A stretch of DNA of 64,000 nucleotides from an uncultured Lachnospiraceae bacterium (lineage in GTDB: Bacteria; Bacillota; Clostridia; Lachnospirales; Lachnospiraceae): assembly GCA_947172705.1 (NCBI GenBank), contig CAMWCA010000005.1, forward strand, positions 1-64,000, in the 5' to 3' direction. Shown one piece after another: positions 15,122 to 41,545 of this stretch. The notes under the pieces are model-generated. The model searched no databases. It was given only the letters and a program-made list of their open reading frames with translations, and had not been told where the DNA came from. Each line of letters begins with the position of its first letter. Position 1 is the stretch's first letter. The position numbers were made by a program, and so were the translations under genes.

Positions 15122-17005
15122 ATGTGCGGAATATGTGGTTTTGTTTCAAGACAAGGCATTACATTGGAACAGCTTAAAAGAATGAATGATACCATGTATC
15201 ATAGGGGACCGGACGATTCTGGGGAGGAAATTTTTCCCATGAAAGAGGGCTATCAGATGGGCATGGCGCAGAGAAGGCTGGCTATTATGGATCTTTCGCC
15301 TTTGGGGCATCAGCCCATGCACTCTGTTGACGGACGGCTGAGCGTGATTTTTAACGGGGAAATTTACAACTTTGTAGAATTGCGCGGAGAACTGAAGGAT
15401 TATCCTTTTTCCTCCAATTGTGATACGGAAGTGATCATTGCTGCTTACTTAAAATGGGGCATTCAGTGTCTCAACCGTTTGAACGGAATGTTTGCCATCT
15501 GCCTTTACGACCGGGAAAAGGAAGAAATTTATCTGGTAAGAGACCGGATTGGCAAAAAGCCTTTATATTATGAGATAGAAGGAGAAAATCTGATATTTGC
15601 GTCAGAGTTGAAACCCCTGATGGAAAGAAAGGGATTTCAGCGCAGGATTCGCCGGGAGGTGTTGTCCAGATTTTTATTTCAACAATACATTAACGCCCCT
15701 GACAGCATATTTGAGAATGTGTATAAGCTGGAGCCGGGCAGTGTTTTGTCTTTTCATTATGGTAAAATAAAAAAATGGAAGTATTGGGATATCAAAGAGG
15801 TTTATCATAAAATGCAGGAAGCCCCTGTGGCGGATTACGGACAGGCAAAGGGCGAGCTTAAGGAGTTGCTGAAAAAGGCAGTTTCTGCCCGTATGATTGC
15901 AGATGTTCCATTGGGGGCATTTTTAAGCGGAGGATATGATTCTTCTCTGATGACGGCAATTGCCCAGGAGCATTCTTCAGAGCCGGTTAAGACCTTTTCC
16001 ATTGGCTTTAAGGAAGATCAATATAATGAAGCAAAATATGCTGCGGAGGTTGCGCGGCATCTGGGTACAAAGCATACGGAGCTTTACATTGAAGAAAAGG
16101 AAATGTTTGATCTGGTGGAAAGTATTCCTCAGTTCTATGACGAGCCTTTTGCAGACTCCTCACAGATTCCCACCATGCTGGTTTCCATGCTTGCCAGAAG
16201 AGATGTTACGGTGGCGCTTTCCGGAGATGGGGGGGACGAATTTTTCTGTGGCTACAATATCTACGAAAATGTACGGCAGGCGCAGTTGCTGGATGGGCTA
16301 GGCGCACTGACCCATGGAATATGCGGTTTGCCGGGATTAAAGCAGGCGGGATTGGAGGATCGGCTTCCTTTTCGGGTGAAGGTGATTGCAGGCAATAGAA
16401 ATAAGGAAACAAAAACTCAATTTGGAGCAAGCAACTATGTTGTGCGCGCTAACCAAATGGTATTGGGAGAGGGGATACCCTGTCATTATCCGGTAGAAGG
16501 AAGGTATGCCGTGTCAAATTGGCAGATCAGAAGAATGCTGCTGGACATGGATACCTATCTGCCCGGCGATATTCTGTGTAAGGTAGACCGCGCCTCTATG
16601 AAATACTCCCTGGAGGCACGATGCCCGATTTTAGATAAGGATGTTATGGAATATTCCTTCCGGATGTCCCATGAGATGAAATATGATAAAGGAAACAAGA
16701 AACGAATTCTGAAGGATATTGCCTATGACTATATTCCAAAGGAGCTCCTCGACAGACCCAAAGTAGGATTTGGCGTTCCCCTTGACAAATGGCTGAGAGG
16801 ACCCTTGAGGGAACAGCTTCTGGATATGTGCAGCAGGGACTATCTGAAAAGGCAGGGGATTTTTGACGGAGATTTTACCGCTGGCATGATTGAAGAATAC
16901 GTAAAAAAGGGGGATGGAGGACCGGCAACCGGTGCCAACTACTCCAAGCTTTCCTGGTCATTCTTTGCCTTTCAGCAGTGGTATCGCTATTATTTTGAAG
17001 AATAG
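15122..17005 (+). CDS. Asparagine-synthase-like glutamine amidotransferase (first copy)
   Basis: MCGICGF (Cys2 nucleophile), RRLAIMDLSPLGHQPM, FLSGGYDSSLMTA, SGDGGDEFFCGY. Confidence 0.93.
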   Translation: MCGICGFVSRQGITLEQLKRMNDTMYHRGPDDSGEEIFPMKEGYQMGMAQRRLAIMDLSPLGHQPMHSVDGRLSVIFNGEIYNFVELRGELKDYPFSSNCDTEVIIAAYLKWGIQCLNRLNGMFAICLYDREKEEIYLVRDRIGKKPLYYEIEGENLIFASELKPLMERKGFQRRIRREVLSRFLFQQYINAPDSIFENVYKLEPGSVLSFHYGKIKKWKYWDIKEVYHKMQEAPVADYGQAKGELKELLKKAVSARMIADVPLGAFLSGGYDSSLMTAIAQEHSSEPVKTFSIGFKEDQYNEAKYAAEVARHLGTKHTELYIEEKEMFDLVESIPQFYDEPFADSSQIPTMLVSMLARRDVTVALSGDGGDEFFCGYNIYENVRQAQLLDGLGALTHGICGLPGLKQAGLEDRLPFRVKVIAGNRNKETKTQFGASNYVVRANQMVLGEGIPCHYPVEGRYAVSNWQIRRMLLDMDTYLPGDILCKVDRASMKYSLEARCPILDKDVMEYSFRMSHEMKYDKGNKKRILKDIAYDYIPKELLDRPKVGFGVPLDKWLRGPLREQLLDMCSRDYLKRQGIFDGDFTAGMIEEYVKKGDGGPATGANYSKLSWSFFAFQQWYRYYFEE

Positions 17006-18162: not shown

Positions 18163-20049
18163 ATGTGCGGAATAGCAGGGTTTTGCAATCTGAAATACGA
18201 CCGTAGTAGTAATATTGAAAAAATGAAGGAAAAACTGTTTCACAGAGGACCTGATGCAGGAGGAAGTTTTTTTTCGGAAGACGGGCAGGTAACCTTTGGA
18301 CACAGGAGGCTTTCTATCGTGGATTTGTCAGAAAATGGTGCCCAACCCATGATTTCACATAGCGGTCGTTATGTAATTACGTACAATGGTGAAGTTTATA
18401 ACTATAAAAAGATAGCGAAGAAACTTCTTGAGGAAAAAAAGGTGGAGGCTTTTAAGGGTACTTCTGATACGGAAGTTTTACTGGAAGCGTTTGAGGCGTA
18501 CGGCGTAAAGGAAGGGATTTCCCTGTGTAAGGGCATGTTTGCCATAGCTCTTTATGACCAACAGGAGCAATGTCTGTATTTGCTTAGAGACCGAATTGGA
18601 GAAAAACCGTTGTATTATGGGCAGGTAGGGGAGGCGTTTGCATTCTCTTCGGAGTTGAATGCGCTGCGGGCGCTTGAAGGTTTTCGGAATCCTATCAATA
18701 CCGAAGTACTGGATTTATATTTTATTCACGGCTATATTCCGGCACCTTATTCTATTTATAAGGATATTTACAAACTTGAGGCAGGGACAATATTAAAAAT
18801 TAAATTACCATTTAATAACATGGAACAAATAGAACTGGAAACCTACTGGTCTGTAAAGGAAACGGCAAAAAGAGGTCAGGCAACCCTTTTTAAAGGTTCG
18901 GTGGAGGAAGCGGCGGATGAACTGGAACGTTTGTTAAAGGAATCCATAGCGGAACAGATGGTGGCTGATGTGCCTGTAGGCGCCTTTTTGTCAGCGGGGA
19001 TCGACTCCAGCACCGTGGTTGCGTTGATGCAGTCTTTGCATAAGGGTAAGGTAAAAAGCTTTACCATTGGCATGGCGGAGAAGGATTATAACGAGGCAGT
19101 TTACGCCAAAGAGATTGCAAAGCATTTAGGAACGGAGCACACGGAGCTTTATATTACGGAAGAAGATGCCAAGGCGGTACTCCCCAAGCTGGCGGAAATG
19201 TATGGAGAGCCGTTTGCGGATTCGTCCCAGATCCCCACTTATCTGGTGAGTAAAATGACCAGAGAGCATGTGACGGTTTCTCTAAGCGGAGATGGCGGGG
19301 ATGAGCTTTTTTGCGGGTATACTTCTTATGCGTCTGTGGAACGGATCTGGAATAAGATGAAGGGATTTCCCTATTGGCTGCGAAAACCCTGCAGTGAGCT
19401 GGTGATACATTCTCCTTTAGCAGGAAAACCGATCTACAGAATAAAAGGAAAGCTTCTGGGAGCCAGGGGACCATCGGAATTGTACGTGGATTCTTATGAG
19501 ACAGATCCTCTGACGAAAAAAATCAGCCTTGCTCCTGCTGGATGCAGCTATAAATACAGTGAATATGACCCTGGGTTTCTGGAAGAAACCAATCATAATA
19601 TTATGCTCATGGATATGCTGATGTATCACCCGGACGATATTCTTGTGAAAGTAGACAGAGCGGCAATGGCGGTTTCTCTTGAAACAAGAGTTCCCATGTT
19701 GGATAAGGATGTGGTGGAATTTGCATGGAGTCTTCCAATTGTATATAAGAAAGAGGGGAAGACAGGAAAAAAGGTGCTGCGGGATGTGCTTTATCGATAT
19801 GTGCCAAGGGAAATGATGGAACGCCCTAAGAAAGGCTTCAGCATCCCTATTGAAAAATGGCTCCTGCAGAAGGATATGCGGGAATGGGCGGAAAGCCTGA
19901 TCGACAGAAAGCTTCTCCAAAAGCAGGGGATTTTAAATCCGGAGGTGGTTTGGAAAATCTGGCGTGACTTTACAGACAAGGGCGAATGGAGGATACAGAT
20001 CTGGTATATTCTAATGTTTCAGGAATGGATGATGAAAATAAACCTGTAA
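18163..20049 (+). CDS. Asparagine-synthase-like glutamine amidotransferase (second copy)
   Basis: MCGIAGF, FLSAGIDSSTVVA, SGDGGDELFCGY. Confidence 0.93.
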   Translation: MCGIAGFCNLKYDRSSNIEKMKEKLFHRGPDAGGSFFSEDGQVTFGHRRLSIVDLSENGAQPMISHSGRYVITYNGEVYNYKKIAKKLLEEKKVEAFKGTSDTEVLLEAFEAYGVKEGISLCKGMFAIALYDQQEQCLYLLRDRIGEKPLYYGQVGEAFAFSSELNALRALEGFRNPINTEVLDLYFIHGYIPAPYSIYKDIYKLEAGTILKIKLPFNNMEQIELETYWSVKETAKRGQATLFKGSVEEAADELERLLKESIAEQMVADVPVGAFLSAGIDSSTVVALMQSLHKGKVKSFTIGMAEKDYNEAVYAKEIAKHLGTEHTELYITEEDAKAVLPKLAEMYGEPFADSSQIPTYLVSKMTREHVTVSLSGDGGDELFCGYTSYASVERIWNKMKGFPYWLRKPCSELVIHSPLAGKPIYRIKGKLLGARGPSELYVDSYETDPLTKKISLAPAGCSYKYSEYDPGFLEETNHNIMLMDMLMYHPDDILVKVDRAAMAVSLETRVPMLDKDVVEFAWSLPIVYKKEGKTGKKVLRDVLYRYVPREMMERPKKGFSIPIEKWLLQKDMREWAESLIDRKLLQKQGILNPEVVWKIWRDFTDKGEWRIQIWYILMFQEWMMKINL

Positions 20050-21411
20050 TCGTCCCAGAACAGGTTTGTCTGCCATCAGCAGCAGACTGATATAAAACAG
20101 TGCCATATTGTAGATGGTGTAGCGAGTCTGGCAGAAGATGACCAGAGAGACCAGCCCCACGTTGAGAATTATGGAAATAAGAGTCAGAAGGGAAAAGAGA
20201 ATGATCTTCTGATCCTTCACAACGCGGATATGGTAAATAAGCAAAACAATATAAAGCAAATAAACCAGAAGGCTGTACCAGTTCAGGATAGGATTTCGCT
20301 GTGCTACAGTGGTAACCAGTCCGGAAAGAAAATTGTCTGCAAAGGTGCTGAGAATCTTGGACATATTATGTGGGATGACAGAGAAATTGATGGTATCCAT
20401 GATTTCATCGGCATATACGTTTAAGGCGACAATGTCCTTTCCGTAACGTTCTTTTGCAAAAGCATTGATCATGGGCCACATGGTATCGATCTGAATGCAG
20501 TCATAATAGTCTCCAAAATGAGAGACACGGTCAGACCACCCCTTGCCTGCTGCGTTTTTTAAGTAACCTTTTTCTGCACAGACATCATAGATTTCTTCAA
20601 ACAGCTTTTGAACAGCTTCATCCTCAATATAAGCGGCATCCTCCCGTTGGGCGGTATAAAAAGCCATGGTGGTGATAAAACGGGTGTCACCGGAATGTCT
20701 TGCGGCCTCTCCACGAAGGGCAAAATTGTAGCCAAGATCCAGCAGCTGACAGCTAAGAAGAATGCCAGAGGCGCATAGAAAGGCAGCTCCCAACCCTTTG
20801 GGAAGCTGTTTTTTATGACCATAAACAATCAGTTGGCAAAGAATCAACAGAGCAAGGGAAAAGATCATTTGTTTTCTGGTGGAAACCAAAAGAAATACCA
20901 GAACGCAGCACCATAGCAGTTTCGTTCTGGAAGGTTCCAGGACATAATCCATCATCCAGCGGAAAAACAGCAGATAACCGGAGATAGCAATTCCTTCCGT
21001 TAAAATGCTGTTGGAGTACATGGAGCCTCTTTGGGCTGCAAAACGGCATAAGAGAGATACGGCGAAGGATAATAGGAGAGTCAACAGGGGAGTTACCTTG
21101 TGAAGACGGAATTTCTTTCCCACAAATACACTGAAAGACCAGGCGGCCACCGCGGCAAGAATACTTTGGAGAAACGCCGCGGCGGTTAAATAAAAGTCAG
21201 CGCCTGTTCCGGCGAAGACAAATCGTAAAAAAGCCAGAAACATGGGATAGAGAGGTTCTCTGGAAATATTCATTTCAATATAGCTGGGGGAATCCACGCA
21301 GATGACTGCACCATCATAAAAAGCAAAAAAGAGATAAAAGCCCAGGCTGATAATCAGTAAAAGATTAGAATAAGTGCGTGTTAGTTTTTGACTTTCGGTA
21401 TTGGGATGCAT
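20011..21411 (-). CDS. Multi-TM membrane protein, possible GT-C-type glycosyltransferase
   Basis: 466 aa, many hydrophobic helices; opposite strand to neighbours; 3' end overlaps the AsnB-like gene by 39 nt. Confidence 0.65.
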   Translation of the reverse strand: MHPNTESQKLTRTYSNLLLIISLGFYLFFAFYDGAVICVDSPSYIEMNISREPLYPMFLAFLRFVFAGTGADFYLTAAAFLQSILAAVAAWSFSVFVGKKFRLHKVTPLLTLLLSFAVSLLCRFAAQRGSMYSNSILTEGIAISGYLLFFRWMMDYVLEPSRTKLLWCCVLVFLLVSTRKQMIFSLALLILCQLIVYGHKKQLPKGLGAAFLCASGILLSCQLLDLGYNFALRGEAARHSGDTRFITTMAFYTAQREDAAYIEDEAVQKLFEEIYDVCAEKGYLKNAAGKGWSDRVSHFGDYYDCIQIDTMWPMINAFAKERYGKDIVALNVYADEIMDTINFSVIPHNMSKILSTFADNFLSGLVTTVAQRNPILNWYSLLVYLLYIVLLIYHIRVVKDQKIILFSLLTLISIILNVGLVSLVIFCQTRYTIYNMALFYISLLLMADKPVLGRLQVYFHHPFLKH

Positions 21412-21421
21412 GATTTTCTCC

Positions 21422-22318
21422 TTAATGATCCTGCGGCTTATTTCCCCAAATAATGATACAATTTTTTTCTTTGGTCAAAGGCTCCTCGGGGATAACGGAA
21501 GAACCGGGGATTTTTTTCAAAAGCGCTTCCAGGCTGTAACCATCCAAAACATCGCAGGAGAGGGAATTCCATGTGATATAGCCAGCTCTTGATTTTAAAA
21601 TCACTTTATCCAGATAAATGTCCTGAATATCCCGTATCAATTCAGAAAAAGCATAGTTGCTCATAACAAAGTCGTAAGACGAGTCTACTTCAATGCGCGT
21701 CCCGTCCACAAATTTTACTCTGTCGATAATAGAATTCCCAAATTTGCCAAGATACTTCTTTGCCAGTCCCAGTACTTCAGGAAGATCAAAAAGGGAATAG
21801 GATTCAATTCCCGCCAAATAACTTGTAAGGATCCTGCATTCGCCAGCGTAACCAATGCCGATCTCGGCAACTGATTTGATTGTTGGGATATCAAACAAAA
21901 GCGCAATATCCTGTAAAACTTTTGCGTAACGAAGGGTGGTGGGGGAAAAGTCCATATCCTGACCATTTACGTTGTATGAGAAGGTAACGGGATTGCCATA
22001 CTGGTCATTCCGTTGAAAATTGTGCCAATCCGGATCGGAAAATTGCAGTTGTTTTCTCTTTTGGATTATATCCAGGTATGCCTGTCCCTGCACTTGGGAA
22101 ACATGTTCTAAAATGTCATTATACGTAGGGTTTCGCCTGAAATCCTGAAAAAATCGTTCATTTCTGGATGCCATATAACAGACCACCGGATAGGAATTGT
22201 CGTCTGATATGCTGGTCTTTCGCCCCTGTGCTACCAATTTATGATTATAATATTTATAGAGAATTCGATCCATGTAATGCGTATATAAAGCTTTTATTTT
22301 TTTGATTGCCTGAGCCAT
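21422..22318 (-). CDS. Putative sugar O-methyltransferase (NanM-like family)
   Basis: SAM-binding-like segment VAEIGIGYAGECRIL, FDLPEVLGLAKKYLGK, FVMSNYAFSELIRDIQDIYLDKVILKSRAGYITWN. Confidence 0.7.
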   Translation of the reverse strand: MAQAIKKIKALYTHYMDRILYKYYNHKLVAQGRKTSISDDNSYPVVCYMASRNERFFQDFRRNPTYNDILEHVSQVQGQAYLDIIQKRKQLQFSDPDWHNFQRNDQYGNPVTFSYNVNGQDMDFSPTTLRYAKVLQDIALLFDIPTIKSVAEIGIGYAGECRILTSYLAGIESYSLFDLPEVLGLAKKYLGKFGNSIIDRVKFVDGTRIEVDSSYDFVMSNYAFSELIRDIQDIYLDKVILKSRAGYITWNSLSCDVLDGYSLEALLKKIPGSSVIPEEPLTKEKNCIIIWGNKPQDH

Positions 22319-23863: not shown

Positions 23864-24820
23864 ATGAATATAATCAGGATGTCCGGAGGTTTGGGAAATC
23901 AGATGTTTCAGTATGCATTGTACCTGAAGCTCCGTTCATTGGGAAAAGAAGTAAAATTTGACGATATCAATGAATACCGAGGCGAAAGCACGCGGCCTAT
24001 TATGCTTGCACTGTTTGGCATCGACTATCCAAGGGCAACATGGGATGAGATCGTAGGGTTTACAGACGGTTCCATGGATATATTAAAGAGGATCAGGAGA
24101 AAGCTTTTTGGCAGGAGAGCCATTGAATACTATGAGGAAGGATTTTATGACCCCAAAGTGCTTCAGTTTGAATCCATGTATCTGCGGGGAAATTTCCAAA
24201 GTGAGAAGTATTTTGCAGATATAGGGGACGAGGTAAGAGCGCTGTACCAGTTTCCCACCTTAGAAGACATGCATCTGCCGGAGGATCTTTATGGGAGTAC
24301 CAGGGCATGTCTGGATGCCATAGAAGCCACCGAGGCAGTAGGACTTCATATGTACAGAAGCGATTCGCGCAGGGAGGAAGAGTTGTATGAGGGGATTTGC
24401 ACGGAGAAATACTATGAAGGCGCGGTGCGCTTTTTGCAGGAAAAATGTCCTCAGGCAACTTTTTTCATTTTCAGTAATGAGCCCAAATGGGTGAGGGGCT
24501 GGGTGGAAAACCTGATCGGCAGTCAGATCAGGGAAGGCATGAGCCGAGAAGAAATAAAGGCAATGGAAAAGCGGTTTGTAATGGTGGAGGCAAATACGGA
24601 ATATACCGGTTACCTGGATATGCTTTTGATGAGTAAATGCAGGCATAACATTATCTCTAATTCCAGCTTTAGCTGGTGGGCGGCGTGGATCAATCACAAT
24701 CCGGATAAGCTGATCGTTGCCCCGGATCGATGGGTGAACGACAAGGAAAGCAGCGATGTTTATACGAAAGGCATGACACTGGTTGACGCTCAGGGCAGAG
24801 TGAGCGGTATCGTAAAATAA
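23864..24820 (+). CDS. GT11 alpha-1,2-fucosyltransferase-like protein with non-canonical donor motif
   Basis: GGLGNQMFQYALYLKL and SNSSFSWWAAWIN are GT11 hallmarks, but HxRRGDY is replaced by HMYRSDS. Confidence 0.85.
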   Translation: MNIIRMSGGLGNQMFQYALYLKLRSLGKEVKFDDINEYRGESTRPIMLALFGIDYPRATWDEIVGFTDGSMDILKRIRRKLFGRRAIEYYEEGFYDPKVLQFESMYLRGNFQSEKYFADIGDEVRALYQFPTLEDMHLPEDLYGSTRACLDAIEATEAVGLHMYRSDSRREEELYEGICTEKYYEGAVRFLQEKCPQATFFIFSNEPKWVRGWVENLIGSQIREGMSREEIKAMEKRFVMVEANTEYTGYLDMLLMSKCRHNIISNSSFSWWAAWINHNPDKLIVAPDRWVNDKESSDVYTKGMTLVDAQGRVSGIVK

Positions 24821-24844
24821 AAGGACAAGGAAGAATTTCCGGTT

Positions 24845-25780
24845 ATGGATATTATCAGAATGACAGGCGGTCTGGGAAATCAGATGTTTCAGTATGCGCT
24901 GTACCTGAAGCTGCGGGCTATGGGGCGGGAAGTAAAATTTGACGATGTTTCCGAATACCGGCTGGAAAATGCACGACCTATTATGCTTTGGGTATTTGAC
25001 ATTTCCTACCCAAAAGCCAGCCAGAGGGAGATCAATGAAATAACGGACGGCTTCTTAAAGTTCTCCCACCGCGTCAGAAGAAAACTGTTTGGGAGAAAAT
25101 CTCTGGAATATCATGAGAAGGACTGTAATTTTGATTGTCAGGTACTGGAAAGAGATCCGGCTTACCTGACCGGTTATTTTCAAAGTGAAAAATATTTTAA
25201 AGAGATAGAAGAGCAGGTACGGAAGGCGTTTGTTTTTTCAAACCGTATTTGGGAAAAGCTGGATGCAGGAATTAAGGAAAAAATGGAAGGGTATTTGGAG
25301 CAGATCCAAAATACCTTGGCTGTGTCCGTTCATGTGCGCAGGGGTGACTATCTTACGACCAGCGGGGTGTTTGGCGGAATCTGTACGGAGGTTTATTACA
25401 GAAGAGCGGTAAAGAGAATGCTGGAATCTTATCCGCAGGCTCTTTTTTTTGTTTTTACCAATGATGTTGGCTGGGTAAGAGATTGGATTCCCGGATTTTG
25501 CAGGGAATTGGAGCTGGCGGATACGGACAGGTTTATTGTGGTGGAAGGCGCCACAGAAGATACCGGCTATATTGACATGCTGCTGATGAGCAAGTGCAGA
25601 CATCATATTCTTGCCAATTCCAGTTTTAGCTGGTGGGGCGCGTGGCTGAATCCGGCGAAGGACAAATGCCTGATCGCCCCTTCGGTGTGGTTTAACAATC
25701 AGGATAGCAGGGATATTTATACAGAAACCATGATCAAAATTTCTCCGGAGGGCGAATTGATAAAAGATGAAGCAAAATGA
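24845..25780 (+). CDS. GT11 alpha-1,2-fucosyltransferase (tandem paralog, canonical motif)
   Basis: GGLGNQMFQYALYLKL, SVHVRRGDYL, ANSSFSWWGAWLN. Confidence 0.9.
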   Translation: MDIIRMTGGLGNQMFQYALYLKLRAMGREVKFDDVSEYRLENARPIMLWVFDISYPKASQREINEITDGFLKFSHRVRRKLFGRKSLEYHEKDCNFDCQVLERDPAYLTGYFQSEKYFKEIEEQVRKAFVFSNRIWEKLDAGIKEKMEGYLEQIQNTLAVSVHVRRGDYLTTSGVFGGICTEVYYRRAVKRMLESYPQALFFVFTNDVGWVRDWIPGFCRELELADTDRFIVVEGATEDTGYIDMLLMSKCRHHILANSSFSWWGAWLNPAKDKCLIAPSVWFNNQDSRDIYTETMIKISPEGELIKDEAK

Positions 25781-26783
25781 TCCTTTGATTTCCGTTATTG
25801 TGACTGCGTATAATATTGATCAATACCTTTCCAGATGCGTGGACAGCCTGCTGGCACAGACTTACAAGCATATGGAAATTATTTTGGTAGACGATGGGTC
25901 GGATGACCAAACCCCTCTGTTGTGCGATGCTTATGCGGAAAAGAATGCGTCTGTTTCGGTGATCCACAGGGAGAACGGTGGTCCTTCCGCTGCCAGGAAT
26001 GCAGGTCTGGAGATGGCGCAGGGGGAATATGTGGGGTATGTGGACGGAGACGACTGGATAGAGCCGGACATGTATGAAAAGATGCTGGGCGCATGCCTGG
26101 ACACAGGTGCGCAAATCGCCATATGTGCTTACAGACAGGTAGGAGAAGGCGCTGAAGAGATCCGTCCTACCGGCAATATTCTGGTGCTTACCAGGGAGAA
26201 AGCGTTGGATCTGTATATCAACGGGGATTCCCAGTATCATATTTATCACTCGGTATGGAGTAAGCTTTTTGAAAAAAAGGTGATTCAGGATATCAGATTT
26301 CCGGAGGGACGGAAGTCGGAGGATATTATGTACACAACATGGGCGCTTACCAGAGCGTCTGAGTGTGTGTTTCTGGATACCCCATATTACAATTATACAG
26401 TGGATCGAAAGGGGAGCATCATGAACAGCCGGCTTCACCAGCGGCGGTTTGAGGATGAGATTCCCTTCTGGAAAGAACAGGCGTCTTACCTTCATGGAAT
26501 CGGGATGGAAGAACTGGCGGACCAGTCGAAATATCAGTTTTACCGTAAAATGCTGTTCTACTACATTGATTTCAGAGACCGAAAAATGAAAAGCTCCGGC
26601 AGGGAATTGATCGCTTTTTTGCGGAAGGAGAAAAAGGAGATCAAAAGAATTTACCGGAAATCTTATGTGGCGGGAGGGGACAGAGTTAGAATGAAGCTTG
26701 CCCTGTGCCTGCCCGGCGTCTATTACAGAGTGGTTAAGTTATATGATAAATGGATTATTCCTCTGCGGCAGCACAGTGTCTGA
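25767..26783 (+). CDS. Glycosyltransferase family 2
   Basis: ISVIVTAYNIDQYLSRCVDSLLAQTYKHMEIILVDDGSDD; VDGDDWIEPDMYE. Confidence 0.92.
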   Translation: MKQNDPLISVIVTAYNIDQYLSRCVDSLLAQTYKHMEIILVDDGSDDQTPLLCDAYAEKNASVSVIHRENGGPSAARNAGLEMAQGEYVGYVDGDDWIEPDMYEKMLGACLDTGAQIAICAYRQVGEGAEEIRPTGNILVLTREKALDLYINGDSQYHIYHSVWSKLFEKKVIQDIRFPEGRKSEDIMYTTWALTRASECVFLDTPYYNYTVDRKGSIMNSRLHQRRFEDEIPFWKEQASYLHGIGMEELADQSKYQFYRKMLFYYIDFRDRKMKSSGRELIAFLRKEKKEIKRIYRKSYVAGGDRVRMKLALCLPGVYYRVVKLYDKWIIPLRQHSV

Positions 26784-26905: not shown

Positions 26906-28669
26906 ATGAAAAAAGTAAATCTATTTGATAAAATTAATTATATACTGGATAAAAAACAGAAATCTCAGTTGCTGATACTGGGGATTATGATTTTTATTGG
27001 AGGCTTGCTGGAAACCCTGGGAGTGAGCGCCATGATTCCTGTAGTGACGGCGCTTCTCACGCCGGAGGAACTGCAGAAATATATCAATCAATACGAAATT
27101 CTTCAAAACATCTGCAGCCGCCTGCATATTCAGGAAGCAGGACAGCTTACCACCGCGTTGTTGATCGGACTGATGGCGGTCTATGTAGTTAAAAATCTAT
27201 ATATTTTGTTTTTAACGTATAAACAAAATTCTTTTATTACCCAAAACAGAAATCAAATGATCAGCCGGGTAATGGCTGAATTTTTAAACAGACCCTATGA
27301 GAAGTATCTGGGGGCGGACATTCCCACGGTATTTCGTATTACAGACAGTGATATTCCTCAAACCTATGCATTGATTCTCGCCCTGTTACAGCTTGCCAGT
27401 GAGGTGGTGGTTTCCTTTCTGATTTTTATAGTGTTACTTTGGCAGAGTGCTACAATGGCGTTGTTTATCATTGTGGTATTTGGCATTTTAACTTTATTTA
27501 TCATAAAAGTATTTAAGCCGGTGTTGAACAGGATCGGCGCCAAAAACCAGGCACTTCAGTCCAGAATTGCCAAATGGAGAATTCAGGCGACCTATGGTCT
27601 CAAGGATGTAAAGGTTTTGAACAGGGAGGAGTTCTTTGTACGGAATTATTATGAGACAGGCAAGGTGGGCGCTACCGTGGCAAGGAATTATGCAGTTTTA
27701 AATAATATGCCAAGGCTTCTGATCGAAACGGTTTTTATAGTCAGCGTATTGTCTTTTGTGGCTGTTTACATCAGCGGGGACGGAGATGCGGAAGCGATCC
27801 TGAAAACGATCATGACCTTTGGAGTAGCGGCGATCAGGGTGCTGCCCAGCGTAAATCGAATCAATACTTACATTACGGAGATTGCTTATAATCAGCCCAG
27901 TTTGGATTATGTATACGAAAATCTTCAGGAGGGCATGAAAACAGATGCCATGCTTGCGGAGAGAAAAGCAAATTCTCAGGTAGAAAAATTAAAATTGGAT
28001 GATAAAATTGAACTGAATCATATCAGCTTCCATTATCCGGATTCCGATAAGGCGATCTTTTGGGATGCCCATATGGAAGTGCCCAAGGGAAAGTCAGTGG
28101 GAATTATTGGGGCTTCCGGCGCAGGTAAATCCACCATTGTGGATGTGCTTTTGGGATTGCTACATGCCCAGGAGGGAGAGATCACCTGTGATGGGGTAAA
28201 TATTTTTAAGAATTATGAATCCTGGCTTGCTCAGGTGGGATATATTCCCCAATCCATTTATTTGATCGATGAATCCATTCGGGACAACATTGCTTTTGGC
28301 ATTGACGAGGAGAAGATCGATGATAAGCGAATCTGGGAGGTGCTGGAGGAGGCACAGCTGAAGGAATTTATCGAGGAACTGCCGGAAGGGCTTGACACTA
28401 CCATTGGGGACAGAGGGGTTCGGCTTTCAGGAGGGCAGAGGCAGCGTATCGGCATTGCCCGGGCGCTTTACAACGATCCTGAGATCCTGGTCTTCGACGA
28501 GGCTACTTCAGCGCTTGATAATGACACGGAGGCGGCAGTGATGGAGGCGGTGAATAGTTTCCACGGTAAAAAGACCATGATCATCATAGCCCATAGATTA
28601 AATACTATAGAAAAGTGCGATATTATATATAAGGTTGAGGATGGAAAATTGTTAGAGACCAGTCTGTAA
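26906..28669 (+). CDS. ABC transporter permease/ATP-binding fusion (PglK/MsbA-type lipid-linked oligosaccharide flippase candidate)
   Basis: N-terminal TM domain, Walker A GASGAGKST, LSGGQRQR, Walker B ILVFDEATSALD. Confidence 0.9.
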   Translation: MKKVNLFDKINYILDKKQKSQLLILGIMIFIGGLLETLGVSAMIPVVTALLTPEELQKYINQYEILQNICSRLHIQEAGQLTTALLIGLMAVYVVKNLYILFLTYKQNSFITQNRNQMISRVMAEFLNRPYEKYLGADIPTVFRITDSDIPQTYALILALLQLASEVVVSFLIFIVLLWQSATMALFIIVVFGILTLFIIKVFKPVLNRIGAKNQALQSRIAKWRIQATYGLKDVKVLNREEFFVRNYYETGKVGATVARNYAVLNNMPRLLIETVFIVSVLSFVAVYISGDGDAEAILKTIMTFGVAAIRVLPSVNRINTYITEIAYNQPSLDYVYENLQEGMKTDAMLAERKANSQVEKLKLDDKIELNHISFHYPDSDKAIFWDAHMEVPKGKSVGIIGASGAGKSTIVDVLLGLLHAQEGEITCDGVNIFKNYESWLAQVGYIPQSIYLIDESIRDNIAFGIDEEKIDDKRIWEVLEEAQLKEFIEELPEGLDTTIGDRGVRLSGGQRQRIGIARALYNDPEILVFDEATSALDNDTEAAVMEAVNSFHGKKTMIIIAHRLNTIEKCDIIYKVEDGKLLETSL

Positions 28670-28702: not shown

Positions 28703-29743
28703 ATGATTGGAACGGAGTTATTGAAAGGACAGGGGCTTGGCAATCAGTTGTTTTGCTATGTCACTACCAGATCCATTGCTATGGATAATCAACTGCCTTT
28801 TAGCATTCTGGGCAGGGAGACGGTAGCAAATAACATACACAGCAATTGTGGCATGTACTTTATGGATCTGGACTACGGCATTCCTTCGGTTAAAGAGGAT
28901 TATAAAGAAATTTATTATGAGAAAGAGGATCGTATTTATACAGGTAATTCAAAGCATGATCTCACTCACGGCTGTTATGTGACGGGAGTGGATGAGAAGC
29001 TTCTGCATCCCGCAGATAACACTTTGCTTTACGGAAATATGCAGGCGGAAAGCTACTATATAAAGCATAAAGAAGAAATCCGGCAGTGGCTTAAAGTAAA
29101 AGAAGAGTATGACTGTATGGAATATAGTCGGGATAATCTGTGTATTTTACATCTCAGATGCAGCGATTATCTGGATTGCCCGGAGCTTTATCTGCGGAAG
29201 AAATACTGGAAGGACGGTATCCGGAACATGAAAAAGATCAATCCGGATATGGAATTCATGATCATTACCAATGATGTAAAAGAAGCGGAAAAGATCCTGC
29301 CAGGGATACCTGCGTATAATTTTGATCTTGCCAAGGACTATTCCATTATCAAAAATGCAAAATATTTGCTGCTTTCCAATTCGTCTTTTGCTTATTTCCC
29401 GGCATTTACCAGTACGACGGTGAAATATATCCTGGCGCCTAAATATTGGGCAAGGCATAATGTATCAGATGGGTATTGGGCTTCGGAGCAGAATATTTAC
29501 GATGGATGGCATTATCAGGACAGAAAGGGAAGGGTTTTTTCTGCTGAAGAATGCAGGAAGGAATTACAGGAGTATCAGAGAAAGTCTCCTTTCTATCAAA
29601 CGTTAAATGTGAAGCCCCAGGGCGTTGCTTTGAAGCTGGAGGAATTGAAAACCAGGATTCACTATGGAAAACACTGGATGATGCGTATTCTGCGCAGCGT
29701 AAAGAGAAGACTTGGCATTTTGCTGGGCAGGAAGACATTGTAA
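28703..29743 (+). CDS. GT11-like glycosyltransferase with variant motif HLRCSDY
   Basis: GQGLGNQLFCYVTTRSIA, LHLRCSDYLD, LLLSNSSFAYFPAF. Confidence 0.75.
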   Translation: MIGTELLKGQGLGNQLFCYVTTRSIAMDNQLPFSILGRETVANNIHSNCGMYFMDLDYGIPSVKEDYKEIYYEKEDRIYTGNSKHDLTHGCYVTGVDEKLLHPADNTLLYGNMQAESYYIKHKEEIRQWLKVKEEYDCMEYSRDNLCILHLRCSDYLDCPELYLRKKYWKDGIRNMKKINPDMEFMIITNDVKEAEKILPGIPAYNFDLAKDYSIIKNAKYLLLSNSSFAYFPAFTSTTVKYILAPKYWARHNVSDGYWASEQNIYDGWHYQDRKGRVFSAEECRKELQEYQRKSPFYQTLNVKPQGVALKLEELKTRIHYGKHWMMRILRSVKRRLGILLGRKTL

Positions 29744-39926: not shown

Positions 39927-40649
39927 ATGCAAAAGACAGTTATCGTGATGCCGGTTGCCAACGAGGAAGGAACCATGGAACAGGTGTTGGAGGATATTTT
40001 GAAGCTGCCTTATGAGAACCTGTACCTGTACGTGATCATGGATAGCTACTCTAAGGACAAAACTGCAGATATTGTGAAACGCTATGAACAGAGAACAGGG
40101 GGAAAGATCCGGTATATCTTTCATGAGAGATCCTACGGCGTGATCAGCTGCTATCTGGAGGGCTATAAAAGAGCGTTACAGGACGGTGCGGAGTGGGTCA
40201 TCGAGATGGACGGCGGCGGAAGCCACCTGCCGGCGGAGGTACCTCAGTTTATAGAGAAGCTGGAAGAAGGCTATGAATGTGTTTGGGGTTCCCGGTTTAT
40301 TGAGGGAGGCGACATCAGCAACCACCCTCTTTATCGAAGATTCTTAAGCAGCGGGGGAACCGTTCTGGCAAATGTGGTATTGGGAACCCGGCTGAAGGAC
40401 ATGACCAGTGGATTTGAAGGATTCCAAAGGCATGTGCTGGAGGAACTGGATCTGGATCAGTTTCTGTCCACAGGGCATATGTATCAGACCGAAATGCGGT
40501 ATTATTGCAGAAACCGAAAAGCGGTGGAGGTTCCCATTCATTATAAGGGTTCAGAGTCCAGCTTTAGCGGAAAGGTGGTTGTGGAAGCCCTTAAGATTCT
40601 GTTTCAATTAAAAAAGCATGAAAAAGCAGTGGTAAGGAATGTAAAATGA
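39927..40649 (+). CDS. Glycosyltransferase family 2, DPM1-like (no C-terminal TM helices)
   Basis: TVIVMPVANEEGTMEQVLEDIL, VIEMDGGGSHLPAEVPQF, DMTSGFEGFQRHVLEEL. Confidence 0.85.
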   Translation: MQKTVIVMPVANEEGTMEQVLEDILKLPYENLYLYVIMDSYSKDKTADIVKRYEQRTGGKIRYIFHERSYGVISCYLEGYKRALQDGAEWVIEMDGGGSHLPAEVPQFIEKLEEGYECVWGSRFIEGGDISNHPLYRRFLSSGGTVLANVVLGTRLKDMTSGFEGFQRHVLEELDLDQFLSTGHMYQTEMRYYCRNRKAVEVPIHYKGSESSFSGKVVVEALKILFQLKKHEKAVVRNVK

Positions 40650-41545
40650 TTATTATACAAGTGGCAGGGGGGCTGGGAAACCAGCTCCAGCAATATGCGC
40701 TGTACAGAAAATTTGTAAGTATGGGAAAAGAGGCAAGGCTGGATCTTTCCTGGTTTGCCCCTGAAAATCAAAGCAAGGAACGTTTTGCCCAAAGAGAGCT
40801 GGAGCTTGCCTGGTTTGACCGTCTGGTTTACGAGGAATGCACGCCGGAGGAAAAGGTAAGGCTGATCGGTTCGGAGGGGATTTGGGGTAAACTGAGAAGA
40901 AAGCTTCTGCCCGGTTCCGTTCGGTGGTTTAGGGAAAGCAGGATGTACCATCCGGAGCTTCTGGAACTGGAGGACGCCTATGTCAGCGGATATTTTGCCT
41001 GTGAAAAATACTATGGGGATATTCTTTACAGCCTGCGGGAGAAAATACAATTTCCGGAAAGCGGTAATCCGGAGAACCAAAGGCTGGCGGAGGAAATGAA
41101 AGGGCGGGAATCTGTCAGTCTCCATATTAGGCGGGGTGACTATCTGAATCCGGAGAATGCCGCTGTGTTTGGAAATATTTGTACCGAGGCATACTACCGG
41201 AGAGCCATTGAACTGATAAAAGAGCTTTGCGGAGAGCCGCATTTCTATATCTTTTCAGATGATGCAGACTATGCCCGGAGAAGCTTTCAGGGAGAAGCGT
41301 ATACCGTTGTGGACATCAACCACGGGAAGGACAGCTTTTACGATATGCAGCTGATGAGTCGGTGCAGACACAATATCTGCGCCAATTCTACTTTTAGCTT
41401 TTGGGGGGCGCGGCTGAATGAGAACGAAAACAAGATCATGGTGCGCCCTACCATTCATAAGAACAGCCAGGTATTTGTGAAGGAAGAGATGGATGAGCTT
41501 TGGAGGGGGTGGCGTTTTGTCAGCCCGGAGGGGGAAGTGAAATAA
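40646..41545 (+). CDS. GT11 alpha-1,2-fucosyltransferase (canonical motif)
   Basis: QVAGGLGNQLQQYALYRKF, SLHIRRGDYLN, ANSTFSFWGARLN. Confidence 0.88.
   Translation: MIIIQVAGGLGNQLQQYALYRKFVSMGKEARLDLSWFAPENQSKERFAQRELELAWFDRLVYEECTPEEKVRLIGSEGIWGKLRRKLLPGSVRWFRESRMYHPELLELEDAYVSGYFACEKYYGDILYSLREKIQFPESGNPENQRLAEEMKGRESVSLHIRRGDYLNPENAAVFGNICTEAYYRRAIELIKELCGEPHFYIFSDDADYARRSFQGEAYTVVDINHGKDSFYDMQLMSRCRHNICANSTFSFWGARLNENENKIMVRPTIHKNSQVFVKEEMDELWRGWRFVSPEGEVK

Follow-up and report, generated by a model that had tools for sequence, protein, structure and literature searches.

The window, a stretch of 64,000 nucleotides from an uncultured Lachnospiraceae bacterium, contains a tandem pair of GT11-family genes, the first of which has an altered donor motif. 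The first protein, A, is judged with slightly better than even likelihood to be a conserved pseudo-fucosyltransferase and a non-catalytic partner of the second, B, within a lipid-linked glycan locus. A would keep its fold but lack the residues needed to bind and activate the pyrophosphate of GDP-fucose, and would be retained for a joint function with B, the intact paralog directly downstream. The two genes are arranged as follows.

23864..24820, + strand: gene A (318 aa), GT11-family, donor motif altered; proposed to be a pseudo-fucosyltransferase
24821..24844, + strand: A–B intergenic gap, 24 bp
24845..25780, + strand: gene B (311 aa), the canonical GT11 paralog and a putative active fucosyltransferase

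Both open reading frames are intact, adjacent and co-directional. An earlier note on this DNA described them as full-length tandem GT11 paralogs, which is borne out by a BLASTP alignment of the two proteins (48% identity over 314 residues, E = 3e-106) and by their matches to Pfam Glyco_transf_11 (PF01531). A scores 57.8 bits and B 90.9 bits against this profile, both above its gathering cut-off of 23.9 bits, and both are therefore members of GT11 by profile score. The HVRRGDY, GGLGNQ and NSSFSWW motifs of B are all intact. In A, motif I is without its first Arg, its Gly and its Tyr, while the His, second Arg and Asp are retained; the earlier note had reported these losses, and had placed both copies of motif I correctly. 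The donor-site elements are listed here.

23885..23902, + strand: GGLGNQ element of A (residues 8–13), intact in the window and altered in 7 other A orthologs
24347..24367, + strand: altered motif I of A, HMYRSDS (residues 162–168), canonically HxRRGDY
24368..24370, + strand: Arg169 of A, right after motif I, placed by alignment columns; possible compensating residue
24656..24679, + strand: motif III of A, SNSSFSWW (residues 265–272), retained except for Ala265, which is invariably Ser in A
25331..25351, + strand: intact motif I of B, HVRRGDY, read from the sequence

The ortholog set of A has 34 members from the Lachnospiraceae, 33 from named genomes, including Parablautia muri, P. intestinalis and strain 10-1, together with the window's own; the relatives are mostly metagenome-assembled genomes. 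Their motif I is HMYRSDS in 22, HMYRGDS in 5, HMRRSDS in 3 and HMCRSDS in 1, with HVRRSDS, HIRRSDS and QIRRSDS once each (loci L047–L049). The first Arg (R164), by which a competent GT11 enzyme can be recognised, is present in B and absent from 28 of the 34 A orthologs, replaced by Tyr in 27 and by Cys in one. This loss requires a single change on the tree. Tyr168 has become Ser in all 34. Arg165 and Asp167 do not vary among the A sequences, nor does most of motif III.

Loss of the motif, taken alone, would speak for a decaying pseudogene or for an error of sequencing or assembly, either of which is now highly improbable. The same first-Arg-to-Tyr change is found in independent assemblies, there is no frameshift or stop in the genus orthologs, and omega is below 0.1; the recurrence and the low omega together rule out assembly error or decay of A. 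A has a median NG86 dN/dS of 0.048 over 9 close species pairs, against 0.092 for B, and a one-ratio codon model for 30 matched species gives an omega of 0.077 for A and 0.126 for B. Between any two of the species, the A proteins lie closer together than the B proteins (435 of 435 pairs, median factor of two), although these pairs are not independent. A is therefore more constrained than its intact paralog, the opposite of what decay would produce, and combines lost catalytic residues with purifying selection, as is expected of a pseudo-partner. The earlier view that A is not decaying is strongly supported across 31 genomes of the genus, with no frameshifts, an omega of 0.04–0.08 and slower change in A than in B. 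Neutral dN/dS with frameshifts in relatives, which would have spoken against that view, was looked for and not seen.

The residues lost from A are among those with known effects in homologous enzymes. In Caenorhabditis elegans POFUT1, GDP binding is no longer detectable in R240A, no activity remains in R240K, and N43A reduces activity 25-fold; the authors of that work note that alpha-1,2 and alpha-1,6 fucosyltransferases also carry the Arg and are impaired when it is mutated (PMC3180450). For WbsJ, a GT11 enzyme, the first Arg of HxRRxD is critical (PMC4202792), and in FUT8 the pyrophosphate is bound by Arg365 and Lys369 (PMC12930516). The identification of the lost Arg as a GDP-fucose-binding residue agrees with all three of these studies. 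From their positions in the motifs, Asn12 of A probably corresponds to Asn43 of POFUT1 and Ser168 of A to Lys369 of FUT8. By analogy with the mutants, A would have lost catalysis.

The losses in A are concentrated in the donor site. Across 30 B sequences and 12 other relatives, 44 alignment columns are invariant, and five of these are lost A-wide: Arg164, Gly166, Tyr168, Gly176 and Ala265. The motif I block accounts for four of the five (hypergeometric P = 0.0012). In addition, GGLGNQ has become GG[LI]ERQ in the A of L047–L049, GG[LF]ANQ in L027, L029 and L031, and GGLGSQ in L030. No changes to GGLGNQ or motif I are present in the 30 B and 12 other relatives (n = 42). At least four separate events have therefore struck two donor-site elements, in A only; close orthologs are not independent, and the clade-wide counts represent few events. 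The earlier note had left it between a pseudo-enzyme, a partner subunit and a transferase of changed donor specificity. The repeated loss of different donor-site residues in the A lineages narrows this towards a non-catalytic partner, although the three are not finally separated.

The main rival to the partner model makes A an active glycosyltransferase whose donor chemistry has been re-engineered: Arg165, the gained Arg169 and Ser168 would hold the pyrophosphate, and a different GDP-sugar or sugar nucleotide may serve as donor. This is possible, but clearly the less probable of the two. The strong purifying selection on A and its intact fold are consistent with it, as are the invariance of Arg165 and Asp167 and the fixation of Ser168 and Ser265 in all A. 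The gain of Arg169 beside motif I could likewise mean a rebuilt pocket. Residue 169 is basic in all A orthologs (Arg, with Lys once), is Leu, Val, Thr or Ile in B, and its equivalent is Leu in most single-copy relatives. Arg169 is also present in the A orthologs that still carry Arg164, so it was probably gained before Arg164 was lost. Against re-engineering, even the conservative R240K change is dead in POFUT1 (PMC3180450), and the A lineages have broken different residues (R164; GN to ER; G to A; N to S). Such varied breakage is expected if the donor site is not needed and is hard to fit to one new specificity.

The structural model of A (AF2, 73 relatives) has a pLDDT of 92.9 and a pTM of 0.90, with the fold intact. 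Its best fold matches in the PDB are AtFUT1-GDP, NodZ, POFUT2, FUT8 and POFUT1, mixed with other GT-B enzymes. The whole-chain TM-scores of these matches are only 0.3–0.47, so that A has the GT-B fold of the inverting fucosyltransferase superfamily at a moderate resemblance. Searches of the PDB with the B sequence and with a profile of 73 relatives gave no useful match, and fucosyltransferases were reached by fold comparison alone. Since A and B are in the same frame, a read-through past the A stop was used as a tethered model of the dimer. Both halves of this AF2 model fold (pLDDT 87), and with a pTM of 0.53 there is no confident interface, the B half having 5 aligned rows, unpaired.

Within the window's GTDB genus (Lachnospiraceae, Parablautia-like), A is present in 31 of 38 genomes and B in the same 31; the remaining 7 have neither. 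The genus A orthologs are 66–100% identical and without internal stops. The two genes are together in all 31 of the genomes that have either, a co-occurrence that is partly a product of linkage. The sampled members of the family outside the genus and its sister genus have single GT11 homologs, with an intact HxRRGDY in all those in which the motif is readable, and in the single-copy genera this one HxRRGDY gene occupies the A/B position. The 34 A orthologs form one clade (support 100/98), which the best tree groups with the intact single-copy HIRRGDY genes of other Lachnospiraceae (support 94, not decisive). The ancestor of A was probably a canonical HxRRGDY GT11 enzyme encoded at this locus. 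A recent tandem duplication after the split from the single-copy genera is weakly disfavoured (p-AU 0.026).

A and several single-copy homologs conserve Asn36, Trp60, Glu206 and Lys208, positions that are drifting in B. This pattern suggests that an ancestral acceptor-side or structural role may have stayed with A, with donor activation in B. It is also conceivable, though rather unlikely, that the pair is a two-gene GT11 fucosyltransferase in which the A subunit is obligatory, the two halves of one enzyme's function having been split over two genes.

The surroundings of A and B are conserved. The order asnB, A, B, GT2 and PglK-like flippase recurs, often followed by a GT11-like gene, DUF5672 and GT17, with variable inserts. 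The flanking genes in the window are these.

18163..20049, + strand: asnB-like amidotransferase, lying upstream of A/B or of the single-copy GT11 in conserved synteny
25767..26783, + strand: GT2 glycosyltransferase (Pfam PF00535), the conserved downstream flank by synteny
26906..28669, + strand: PglK/WlaB-type ABC flippase in the conserved block, matching PglK chains 5c73/6hrc over its full length (E about 1e-84)
28703..29743, + strand: divergent GT11-like protein (GQGLGNQ, HLRCSDY, SNSSFAYF) that keeps the first Arg and has no Pfam match

The last of these has no NCBIfam match either, and orthologs at this position in the related loci alternate between HLRCSDY and NMRGGEY versions. All of the GT11-like variants inspected (HLRCSDY, NMRGGEY and HFRGGDY) keep the first Arg, and provide an internal contrast to A. 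A fourth GT11 gene is located at 40646–41545 of the window in the same polysaccharide region, with a canonical HIRRGDY and about 33–37% identity to A. The polysaccharide cluster has two asparagine-synthase-like amidotransferase genes, at 15122–17005 and 18163–20049, both of which are syntenic. Two minus-strand genes at 20011–22318, encoding a membrane protein and a 298-aa protein without a Pfam match, interrupt the operon; the positions of their homologs vary between related loci, which would fit mobility within the locus.

In five loci (L036, L038–L040 and L042) A and B overlap as ATGA. Together with the 24-bp gap in the window, these overlaps suggest, from gene spacing, that A and B are co-transcribed. 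In eight others (L024, L027, L029, L031–L034 and L045) there are 1.3–1.9 kb between A and B, with the gene order kept. The inserts are mostly a GT4-like gene and a small second gene, with a membrane protein in L031. Such separation is compatible with A being a stand-alone non-catalytic protein, active in glycan binding or regulation of the locus with no contact with B, as are the loss of the donor site with the fold conserved and the lack of a confident interface in the tethered model, which is a weak test given the 5 rows of its B half. The co-directional adjacency, the start/stop overlaps and the constant co-occurrence with paralog B argue the other way, and hetero-oligomers would be likely if the ancestor was a homodimer. 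A stand-alone role is accordingly considered improbable.

The partnership of A with B would instead be a physical one, in which A is a non-catalytic subunit that serves in acceptor binding, stabilisation or allosteric activation. B, presumably the active enzyme, would transfer a sugar, most likely fucose from GDP-fucose, to a lipid-linked glycan, which the PglK-type flippase would then export. The supply of this donor is plausible: gmd is found in 37 of the 38 genus genomes, in 35 of them over the cut-off, and the window genome has an fcl-like gene about 1.7 kb downstream of gmd, whose score of 495.7 bits falls just short of the curated cut-off of 500. The presence of gmd and the fcl-like gene means that GDP-L-fucose is probably made.

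No dead-partner pair in GT11 and no bacterial fucosyltransferase pseudoenzymes were found in the literature searched, and dead-partner glycosyltransferase pairs are known in few families, such as GtfA–GtfB. The A orthologs and their relatives provide a graded natural series across dozens of genomes, from HIRRGDY in the single-copy relatives through HxRRSDS and HMRRSDS to HMYRSDS, which makes the route from enzyme to conserved non-enzyme directly testable. Counts of GT11 genes may overestimate the fucosyltransferase activities of gut bacteria.

A and B are of the same sequence family as the alpha-1,2-fucosyltransferases of CAZy GT11 / PF01531 (FutC, WbsJ and WbwK; human FUT1/FUT2). They share with these the GGLGNQ N-terminus, the position of motif I, NSSFSWW and a fold resembling the inverting fucosyltransferases. 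A differs in being without the first Arg, Gly and Tyr of motif I, of which the first Arg is critical in WbsJ (PMC4202792). The locus resembles those of the PglK/WlaB lipid-linked oligosaccharide flippases in having a full-length PglK-like flippase in the A/B block, and differs from them in that no STT3/PglB oligosaccharyltransferase was found in the window genome, which is about 90% complete; an N-linked destination of the glycan is not supported on this basis. Two systems show how a dead partner can work. The glycosyltransferase EryCIII is stabilised and allosterically activated by its dead partner EryCII (PMC3391682), although EryCII is a haem-less P450 homolog and not a paralog of its transferase. 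In GtfA–GtfB of the accessory Sec system, an active glycosyltransferase is paired with an inactive partner, GtfB, that binds the acceptor (PMC12809243). These are GT4 proteins that act on serine-rich repeat proteins and are unrelated by family to the GT11 pair, for which the A–B complex is putative, yet they serve as the model for a possible joint action of A and B.
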